Both the position numbers and the translations under genes were made by a program. Positions 7,861 through 14,655 of a DNA stretch of 41,646 nucleotides are shown here, piece after piece. The stretch's first letter is position 1. Every line of letters starts with the position of its first letter. The stretch lies in contig JAKPSJ010000148.1 of NCBI GenBank assembly GCA_029555345.1, forward strand, positions 1 to 41,646, written 5' to 3'. Source of the stretch: Methanobacteriota archaeon. Its GTDB lineage: Archaea; Halobacteriota; Methanomicrobia; Methanomicrobiales; Methanospirillaceae. Below the pieces are notes generated by a model. It ran no database searches and was not told the origin of the DNA. It saw only the letters and a program-made list of their open reading frames with translations.

Positions 7861-8745
7861 TTATCCCCCCTTTTTCGCAGATTCTGTTTCCACCGATACG
7901 GGTAATCTATATGGCGAATGGATCTCATCGAGAAGGCCCTCCTCGTTCGTCACAACCCGTGACGATTGCTCGAGCATCAGGTTGACGCACTCGTGTGCAC
8001 CAACCCTCCGGAAATCCGTTCTCAGTGCAATGACGGGAATGCCCCGTGCATAGGCAAACCCCATCTCCCATGACGTCCCTGAGTCTGCGTCTGCCCCGTC
8101 GATGACCGCGACAACGATGTCGCTGCGGGATATCTCATCGCAACAGCGGGAAAATATCTCCTTCTGAGATCCCCTGTCCCGGTGAGGACCCGTGTCCCCC
8201 GCTTCCTGGGGGAGGAAGACCGAGAAGAGGTGCTCCTCGAGGAGGTCACGGAGGTATACGTTGAACCGCCGTTCCGCGGCAGAGAAGAGGGGAGCTGCAA
8301 GGTAAATGCGGTACCGTGAGAAGTCGACGACATCGATTGCCGGGATGTCAGGAAACCTTGCAAGGAAGACACCCCTCCCCTGCCGGCGGGAAGGTCCGGT
8401 CACGTCCTCTCCGTGGTAGGTCGTATCGACCCCGCACGTTGGCGACGAATTGACCCCGACCAGGCACAGGGGCGGTCCCCTCGTCCCGATGATATCCCGG
8501 ACATCCCTCTCGAGCTTCTCGAGGAGACAGAAAAAGTCTTTCCTGTCGAGCCTCTCGAGGAACGTGCCCGGTTCCCTGTCCCTCCCCAGGAAGAGCGTCT
8601 CTGGACAGGGGAGGAACACGACATCGATCCCAAAGTCTCTGCACCGTGCAAGTGCCCTCTCGAACGCATGGAGGTCCGACTCCCTCGTAATCCCCCTCGC
8701 CCTCAACTCTGGGTCATGGATACAGGGACAAGCCAACACGTACAT
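7861..8745 (-). CDS. TudS-like desulfidase fused to nucleoside 2-deoxyribosyltransferase
   Basis: Residues 1 to about 150 resemble the DUF523/TudS-related desulfidases. Three cysteines sit in family-typical places: LACPCIHDPE at the N-terminus, FLPCPETLFLG in the middle and GVNSSPTCGVDT, matching the three-Cys [4Fe-4S] ligand pattern. Residues about 165-275 are a nucleoside 2-deoxyribosyltransferase domain: IYLAAPLFSAAERRFN, a DIVVAVIDGADADSG stretch and the nucleophile region GTSWEMGFAYARGIPVIAL. The track starts 25 codons earlier in unrelated sequence; MYVLACP is the natural family start. It is divergent from tsr3 with 32 bp between. The pairing suggests salvage of thiolated nucleobases or nucleosides, but this is inference; neither activity can be proven from sequence. 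Confidence 0.8.
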   Translation of the reverse strand: MYVLACPCIHDPELRARGITRESDLHAFERALARCRDFGIDVVFLPCPETLFLGRDREPGTFLERLDRKDFFCLLEKLERDVRDIIGTRGPPLCLVGVNSSPTCGVDTTYHGEDVTGPSRRQGRGVFLARFPDIPAIDVVDFSRYRIYLAAPLFSAAERRFNVYLRDLLEEHLFSVFLPQEAGDTGPHRDRGSQKEIFSRCCDEISRSDIVVAVIDGADADSGTSWEMGFAYARGIPVIALRTDFRRVGAHECVNLMLEQSSRVVTNEEGLLDEIHSPYRLPVSVETESAKKGG

Positions 8746-8777
8746 TGATAGAAAGTTGAGGAGAAGGAATACATTAG

Positions 8778-9269
8778 ATGATCCCGCTGTTTGCCTTCCG
8801 GGATAACAGCTGCGACCCACGGAAGTGCACGGTCAAACGGCTGGAACGTGCCGGGCTCATCCGGGTATTCTCCAGGGTCTCCCGGCTGCCCCGGGCCACC
8901 CATCTCCTCGACCCGACCGCCGGGAAGGCCCTCTCTCCTGCAGACAGGGCCCTCCACTCCCTCTCTGTCCTCGACTGTTCGTGGGAAGTGCTCGAAGAGA
9001 TCCCCCTCGGTTCATGGCGGCACCGCAGGGCCCTCCCCTTCCTCGTTGCTGCAAACCCCGTGAACTTCGGGAGACCCTGGCGGCTCTCCTCCGTCGAGGC
9101 GCTCGCTGCAGCACTCTTCATAATCGGGGAGAGAGAGCAGGCGGAGGGTATCCTTGGCACCGTACCCTGGGGAATACGTTTCCTCGAACTGAACGAGGAG
9201 CCTCTCGACCTTTACTCGAAAGCACGGGACAGCCGGGAAGTTCTCGAAGTGCAAAGCCTTTACTATTGA
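8778..9269 (+). CDS. tsr3: 16S/18S rRNA aminocarboxypropyltransferase Tsr3
   Basis: The protein (163 aa) matches the Tsr3/DUF367 family throughout: NSCDPRKCTVKRLERAGL at the N-terminus, LLDPTAGKALSPADR, then DCSWEVLEEIPLGSWRHR, LPFLVAANPVNFGRPWRLSS, VEALAAALFIIGE and the closing WGIRFLELNEEPLDLYS. The family transfers the 3-amino-3-carboxypropyl group of SAM to a hypermodified uridine of small-subunit rRNA. A GGAGAAGG stretch lies just upstream of the ATG. Its stop overlaps the far end of the convergent PAS remnant. It looks intact and normal in length. Confidence 0.93.
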   Translation: MIPLFAFRDNSCDPRKCTVKRLERAGLIRVFSRVSRLPRATHLLDPTAGKALSPADRALHSLSVLDCSWEVLEEIPLGSWRHRRALPFLVAANPVNFGRPWRLSSVEALAAALFIIGEREQAEGILGTVPWGIRFLELNEEPLDLYSKARDSREVLEVQSLYY

Positions 9270-13632: not shown

Positions 13633-14655
13633 ATGATCAGAGTTGCCATCAATGGGTACGGGACCATTGGAAAGCGTGTTGCCGACGCGGTGTCCGCCCA
13701 GCCTGACATGAAAGTGGTGGGGGTCTCCAAGACGAGGCCAAGCCACGAGGCCTTTGTAGCCAAGTCCAGGGGATACCCGCTCTACATCGCCGACCTCTCG
13801 AAAAAGGCTGCCTTCGAGAAGGCCGGTCTCCCTGTCGCGGGGAGCGTCGAAGACATGCTGGAGGCTGCCGATATCGTGGTGGATGCAACGCCGGGCGGTG
13901 TCGGGGAGAAGAACAGGCCGCTCTACGAGAAGGCAGGGGTGAAGGCAATCTGGCAGGGTGGGGAAGAGCACGAAGTCGCCGGGTTCTCGTTCAACTCTGA
14001 CTGCAATTACACTGATGCCCTGGGAAAGCAGTTCGCACGCGTTGTCTCCTGCAACACCACGGGGCTGTGCCGCATCATCAACGCGATGGACAGGAATTTC
14101 GGTGTTGATAAGGTCCGGGCACTGATGGTGCGCCGGGGGGGGGATCCTGCAGACATCAAGAGGGGTCCCATCGATGCAATCGTGCTGAACCCTGTCCATA
14201 TCCCCAGCCACCATGGGCCGGACGTCCAGAGCGTACTGCCTCACATCGACATCGTCACGCTTGCCATGATCGTCCCGGTGACGATGATGCATATGCATGC
14301 CGTGCAGATGGATTTGAAAAAAGCGGCCACTCGCGACGAGGTCATCAGCATCATCGAGAAGAACCCCCGGATGGGGCTCGTACGGAATGCAACCGGGATC
14401 ACAAGCACGGCCGAGCTGAAGGAGTATGCCATGGACATGGGGCGGCCACGCTCGGACCTGTGGGAGAACGGTATCTTCGAAGATTCGATCTCCTGCGCAG
14501 GGAAGGAACTCTACCTCTTCCAGGCGATCCACCAGGAGGCGGACGTCGTGGTCGAGAACATCGACTGCATCCGGGCGATGACAGGCATCGAGAAGGACCC
14601 GGCAAGATCCATCGCAATGACAAACCGTGCATTGAACTTCCTGCCAATCAAGTGA
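13633..14655 (+). CDS. gap: Type II glyceraldehyde-3-phosphate dehydrogenase
   Basis: This is the archaeal phosphorylating G3PDH (340 aa, normal length). MIRVAINGYGTIGKRVADAV is the dinucleotide-binding start, DIVVDATPGGVGEKN follows, and the catalytic cysteine is in VVSCNTTGLCRI. RRGGDPADIKRGPIDAIVLN and the His-rich loop PVTMMHMHAVQM are hallmarks of the type II family. It interconverts glyceraldehyde-3-phosphate and 1,3-bisphosphoglycerate with NAD(P), in a methanogen mainly for gluconeogenesis. The ATG is preceded by CTTTAATT about 25-30 nt upstream and no Shine-Dalgarno, suggesting a leaderless mRNA. Confidence 0.97.
   Translation: MIRVAINGYGTIGKRVADAVSAQPDMKVVGVSKTRPSHEAFVAKSRGYPLYIADLSKKAAFEKAGLPVAGSVEDMLEAADIVVDATPGGVGEKNRPLYEKAGVKAIWQGGEEHEVAGFSFNSDCNYTDALGKQFARVVSCNTTGLCRIINAMDRNFGVDKVRALMVRRGGDPADIKRGPIDAIVLNPVHIPSHHGPDVQSVLPHIDIVTLAMIVPVTMMHMHAVQMDLKKAATRDEVISIIEKNPRMGLVRNATGITSTAELKEYAMDMGRPRSDLWENGIFEDSISCAGKELYLFQAIHQEADVVVENIDCIRAMTGIEKDPARSIAMTNRALNFLPIK

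Follow-up and report, generated by a model that had tools for sequence, protein, structure and literature searches.

To our knowledge, the fate of thiolated bases on transfer RNA (tRNA) breakdown is known mainly from the bacterial desulfidases TudS and RudS. TudS replaces C=S with C=O at a [4Fe-4S] cluster, whereas nucleoside 2-deoxyribosyltransferases move deoxyribose through a covalent glutamate intermediate and bind a free 5'-OH. TudS (PF04463, PDB 6z92), a desulfidase of thiouracil and 4-thio-uridine monophosphate, has Cys10, Cys43 and Cys104 as cluster ligands, is assisted in catalysis by Glu45, Ser101 and Ser103, and prefers thio-uridine monophosphate (thio-UMP) as its substrate (PMC10611767). 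In RudS (TudS-DUF1722), the tRNA 4-thiouridine desulfidase, in which Arg60 also matters (PMC11417400), a TudS-type domain is followed by a C-terminal partner with a possible role in substrate choice. Here we describe an archaeal gene in which a TudS-related domain is likewise followed by a C-terminal partner, but the partner is a nucleoside 2-deoxyribosyltransferase and no DUF1722 match is present. The gene lies at 7861..8745 on the minus strand of a 41,646-nucleotide stretch of DNA (hereafter the window; contig C98, JAKPSJ010000148.1), with its start codon at 8743-8745 and its stop codon at 7861-7863, the latter included in the coordinates, and encodes 294 amino acids. The source genome (1.39 Mb, 76% complete) is a Methanolinea-like metagenome-assembled genome (MAG), and the closest named relatives of the protein, at 78-80% identity, come from Methanolinea MAGs among the best 80 of the 170 loci in our contig scan for fusions.

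We propose, with a probability of about 0.5, that this fusion is a bifunctional enzyme of pyrimidine salvage in Methanomicrobiales, combining desulfuration of thiolated pyrimidines with 2'-deoxyribose exchange. The original prediction had assigned the two halves to TudS/DUF523-type desulfidases with a three-cysteine pattern and to deoxyribosyltransferases with a DSGTSWEMG catalytic region, and both assignments held in domain searches, with the C-terminal half above the Pfam cut-offs and the N-terminal half below them but supported as TudS-type by its fold. The N-terminal domain (residues 1-131; 8353..8745, minus strand) is a probable [4Fe-4S] desulfidase domain by profiles and fold. The NCBIfam model NF045597 (CD3072 family TudS-related putative desulfidase) matched residues 4-131 (E 2.7e-12), as well as all 29 orthologues used for profile matching. 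Since the score (46.6 bits) falls below the equivalog cut-off of 130, as do those of free-standing archaeal CD3072-like proteins, the N-terminal half is best described as a relative of this equivalog and not a member. Matches to Pfam 2-thiour_desulf (PF04463) were weaker, at E 0.032 and 14.7 bits against a cut-off of 34.7, with a best E of 1.9e-5 across the orthologues and E <= 0.01 in 16 of the 29. A profile of 17 N-terminal sequences aligned along 114 columns (E 3.7e-20) with the free-standing archaeal CD3072-like proteins, and weakly with the TudS domains of archaeal RudS. The N-terminal half belongs to the CD3072 branch, not to TudS proper. Members of this branch are its closest relatives (38% identity) and have the Cys, CPE and SPxCG motifs in common with it. 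The archaeal ones differ in being free-standing proteins of about 140-190 amino acids that keep a serine next to the third cysteine, where the fusion mostly has threonine or alanine. We found no tested function for the CD3072 family.

A structural model of the N-terminal domain also pointed to TudS. The AlphaFold model of the whole protein is confident (predicted local distance difference test, pLDDT, 89.6; predicted template modelling score, pTM, 0.88), but the structures recovered with it, among the matches listed, were of the transferase family only, and the N-terminal domain was therefore modelled separately (pLDDT 93.7). The TudS structures 6z92, 6z93 and 6z96 ranked first to third in the PDB for this model, with moderate TM scores of 0.55-0.57, probabilities of 0.98-1.00 and E values of 0.0056-0.024. 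A profile search of PDB sequences with the N-terminal half did not find TudS, which was found by fold comparison alone and is 15% identical in the fold alignment. TudS itself lacks a transferase domain.

The predicted active site is strongly conserved across the 69 orthologues over which residues were counted. Three cysteines, C8 (8722..8724), C47 (8605..8607) and C104 (8434..8436), correspond to TudS Cys10, Cys43 and Cys104 and are the predicted cluster ligands; E49 (8599..8601), two residues past the second cysteine, is the predicted water-activating glutamate (TudS Glu45), and S101 (8443..8445), three before the third, the predicted catalytic serine (TudS Ser101). All five, read on the minus strand, are invariant and keep this spacing (69/69), as is R15, the equivalent of TudS Arg17, while R57, the equivalent of RudS Arg60, is present in 68 of 69. 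Neither the three cysteines nor the transferase glutamate described below is lost in any orthologue, a loss that would have spoken against the original prediction, and this invariance argues that the two-domain pattern is not due to chance. The position of TudS Ser103, directly before the third cysteine, is occupied by Thr (50), Ala (12), Cys (3), Val (3) or Ser (1). C6 varies among orthologues. Another cysteine, C35 (8641-8643), is invariant in all 69 fusions, yet it is not a TudS cluster ligand and is unexplained.

The departure at Ser103 and the additional C35 could be accommodated if the N-terminal domain bound its cluster not for catalysis but to sense oxygen, iron or sulfide and thereby regulate the transferase. 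We regard this as quite unlikely, because mere sensing would call for none of E49, S101, R15 and R57, yet all four are kept in at least 68 of the 69 orthologues. NcsA/TtuA-type thiolases carry an ATP-activating domain, and Pfam and NCBIfam profile searches found no such domain in the fusion protein; together with the fact that the characterised TudS enzymes desulfurate, this makes it very improbable that the N-terminal domain, in a cell rich in sulfide, runs the reaction backwards to thiolate a base. Of 21 sampled Methanomicrobiales genomes, 10 also encode a separate RudS (PF04463 over cut-off). Several RudS-like proteins of this order (L113, L114, L116, L117, L119 and L120) have SPTSG for SPSCG, with serine at the third cluster cysteine and uncertain cluster binding, while others keep the cysteine.

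The C-terminal half is a nucleoside 2-deoxyribosyltransferase by Pfam, PDB sequence and fold comparisons. Its transferase region spans residues 144-260, within which PF05014 matched residues 147-257 (7975..8307, minus strand; E 1.9e-25, 89.7 bits against a cut-off of 28.8) and exceeded its cut-off in 29/29 orthologues; PF15891 was also over its cut-off (E 2.1e-17). Searches of PDB sequences returned the transferases from Desulfotalea (7o62, E 5e-29) and Enterococcus (7m5h, E 2e-28) and CtNDT (about 1e-12), with catalytic residues kept, and deoxyribosyltransferases were the best fold matches of the whole-protein model (TMt 0.85 to 7o62). All three are free-standing proteins and none has an iron-sulfur domain. 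The catalytic positions align with Y7, D82, E88 and D62 of CtNDT and with the C-terminal NLM motif: Y148, D221, E227 and N255 are identical in 69/69 orthologues, M257 in 68 and D209 in 67. E227 (8065..8067, minus strand), the glutamate of DSGTSWEMG, is the predicted nucleophile (CtNDT E88), and N255-L-M257 (7975..7983, minus strand) forms the NLM motif, which in known transferases completes the active site of the neighbouring subunit (PMC7308715). An identity as DNPH1/Rcl or MilB was rejected on the basis of much weaker matches (Rcl E 7e-5, CMP N-glycosidase 5e-4 and DNPH1 0.007, against 5e-29 for 7o62) and of the kept asparagine of the NLM motif.

The sugar preference of this half bears on what the fusion may do. 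Its characterised archaeal relative, AvNRT of Archaeoglobus veneficus, is a true ribosyltransferase with Phe7 at the position of Y148 (8302..8304, minus strand), where phenylalanine goes with ribonucleoside use (PMC7308715). We recognised AvNRT in locus L138, which matches the published stretch 14-CEAEREFNIKVAEFL-28 and its Phe7; it is 37-40% identical to the C-terminal half and has no N-terminal domain. In CtNDT and BpNDT the change of tyrosine to phenylalanine (CtNDT Y7F) likewise raises the use of ribonucleosides (PMC12645435). As Y148 is invariant, the transferase half should prefer 2'-deoxyribonucleosides.

The original prediction had envisaged a salvage route for thiolated nucleosides, for example from tRNA turnover. 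In its form for ribonucleosides, a single protein would desulfurate these and then cleave or exchange the ribosidic bond. AvNRT shows that a member of the same family can act on ribose, CtNDT also uses ribonucleosides, though slowly and with a kcat more than 100-fold lower, and free-standing CD3072-like genes lie near that of the tRNA thiolase NcsA (identified by NCBIfam, E 2.5e-85), with another gene between, in 12 of 15 Methanosarcina-like (f8) loci. This proximity fits thio-nucleoside chemistry, at which gene position gives no other hint. Nonetheless, with the tyrosine of 2'-deoxy-specific enzymes invariant where AvNRT has phenylalanine, and with tRNA turnover yielding ribonucleotides, it is doubtful that the protein handles ribonucleosides from tRNA directly, and we consider such a route unlikely. 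Of the original pathway, part is supported and part calls for revision. Y148 shifts the likely role from salvage of tRNA ribonucleosides to dealing with thio-bases in the deoxynucleoside pool.

A survey of fused homologues, as the original prediction had suggested, found a match in 188 of 199 Methanomicrobiales genomes (130/132 of the near-complete ones), nearly all of which, among the matches listed, cover both halves; the fusion gene is therefore not an assembly artefact. Cultured species with an orthologue include Methanoculleus sediminis and Methanocalculus chunghsingensis. Both halves are under purifying selection, with a ratio of nonsynonymous to synonymous substitution (dN/dS) of 0.07-0.17 in the Methanolinea pairs tested, several of whose synonymous distances are near saturation. 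In our sample of the rest of the phylum the fusion was not found: the CD3072-like genes there are free-standing, the transferases, which reach 59% identity to the C-terminal half, are separate genes, and gene positions revealed no linkage between the two. With 80 of 170 loci kept in the contig scan, independent fusions may exist in other phyla. No plasmid or phage record spans 80% of the protein, and among the matches listed there, only the transferase half is reached. A contig labelled WOR-3 (L083) was rejected as a bacterial fusion and is probably a mis-binned archaeal contig, since it sits inside the Methanolinea branch and Tsr3 adjoins.

Within the order, the two halves have occasionally parted. 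In a maximum-likelihood tree of the C-terminal half, four free-standing transferases of the f3 lineage (G002, G014, G044 and G050) nest within the fused clade, where they group with fused f3 members (support 98/85; the four together 94/82), and those with enough flanking sequence retain the Tsr3 neighbour. This placement and the retained neighbour indicate that fusion came first and that the N-terminal half, of which no match remains in G002, was then lost and the transferase kept. Conversely, G179 keeps the N-terminal half with its motifs, with no recognisable transferase behind it. In G130 (L156, L154), the Tsr3-adjacent fusion looks broken, with a disrupted frame and no third cysteine in the part that can be read. 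A distinct free-standing transferase on a long branch lies on another contig; replacement, contamination and assembly error are all possible. That either half can go alone, and that both are separate genes outside the order, would be expected if two active domains were merely physically joined, each with its own substrates and no common pathway. Against this, the fusion has persisted across almost all of the order, and the confident model of the full chain suggests a fixed arrangement; we judge a mere physical joining somewhat unlikely.

For the bifunctional enzyme that we favour, the following mechanism can be envisaged. C8, C47 and C104 of the N-terminal domain would hold a [4Fe-4S] cluster, whose free iron would accept sulfur from a thiolated pyrimidine, either thiouracil or a nucleoside of it; E49, aided by S101, would activate water, and sulfur would be replaced by oxygen. 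The C-terminal domain would oligomerise like nucleoside deoxyribosyltransferases and pass 2'-deoxyribose between bases through a deoxyribosyl-E227 intermediate. Thio-bases from the turnover of thiolated tRNA would then be converted to uracil either ahead of any fixation as thio-deoxynucleosides by the transferase or immediately afterwards, and would perhaps be kept out of the DNA precursor pool. Because TudS prefers thio-UMP and this type of transferase binds a free 5'-OH, the free base is probably the most natural compound for the two sites to share.

Several points weigh against this proposal. The second catalytic serine (TudS Ser103) is mostly replaced by threonine or alanine, and mutation of its counterpart in RudS abolishes activity (PMC11417400). 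A substrate shared by the two sites is unproven, given their differing preferences for thio-UMP and a free 5'-OH. That a sublineage lost the N-terminal half means that coupling of the two activities is not obligatory. The NcsA link concerns one family, with a gene in between, and may count as one evolutionary event. Finally, the desulfidase and transferase activities and the cluster are predictions, and the choice of substrates, the way in which the reaction runs and any coupling between the domains are likewise predicted.

The genomic neighbourhood of the fusion is itself conserved. A Tsr3/DUF367 ribosomal RNA aminocarboxypropyltransferase gene (8778..9269, plus strand), which is not part of the protein, is the divergent neighbour in 78 of 80 named loci, at a spacing of 29-37 base pairs in 71 of the 78. 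In the window, 32 bases (8746-8777) separate the divergent start codons, a gap so short that the promoter of each gene must lie within or very near the coding sequence of the other. A link to Tsr3 chemistry, through its by-product methylthioadenosine, was considered and set aside, the neighbourhood being its sole support. A GAPDH gene (13633-14655) also belongs to the neighbourhood of the fusion in the window. Free-standing CD3072-like genes directly follow a GAPDH gene, also identified by NCBIfam, in five loci of three families (L131, L132, L172, L173 and L174), starting at or a few bases from the end of the archaeal GAPDH gene in an apparent operon; in five loci of one family they lie near PurP. 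ThiI is present in 21/21 relatives, including the genome described here, and thiolated tRNA is thus expected in them. In two genomes of family f9, one of them Archaeoglobus veneficus as judged from the AvNRT sequence, a DUF5591 gene comes immediately after the free-standing (deoxy)ribosyltransferase gene (L138:2782-3844; L137:1855-2988). DUF5591 is a domain that archaeosine synthase also has, and the adjacency suggests a connection with the modification or salvage of tRNA bases.

Both domains are of known kinds, and their order-wide pairing is undescribed as far as we found: in line with the original prediction, no described enzyme with this pair of activities emerged from the literature searched, and no paper combined the two families, the TudS and RudS papers having no mention of a deoxyribosyltransferase (in a search mostly without subscription journals). 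For the uncharacterised CD3072 family the fusion suggests substrates that can be tested, and the natural losses of either half are ready-made comparisons. Kept across nearly the whole order, a desulfidase-transferase fusion would tie thio-base chemistry to deoxynucleoside salvage. More speculatively, and on balance improbably, it may act as a sanitiser of the nucleotide pool, with the desulfidase wired to the transferase so that thio-bases from tRNA turnover are neither fixed as thio-deoxynucleosides nor incorporated into DNA. If so, no enzyme described earlier would unite these two activities, and its gene would belong to the core set of an entire methanogen order.
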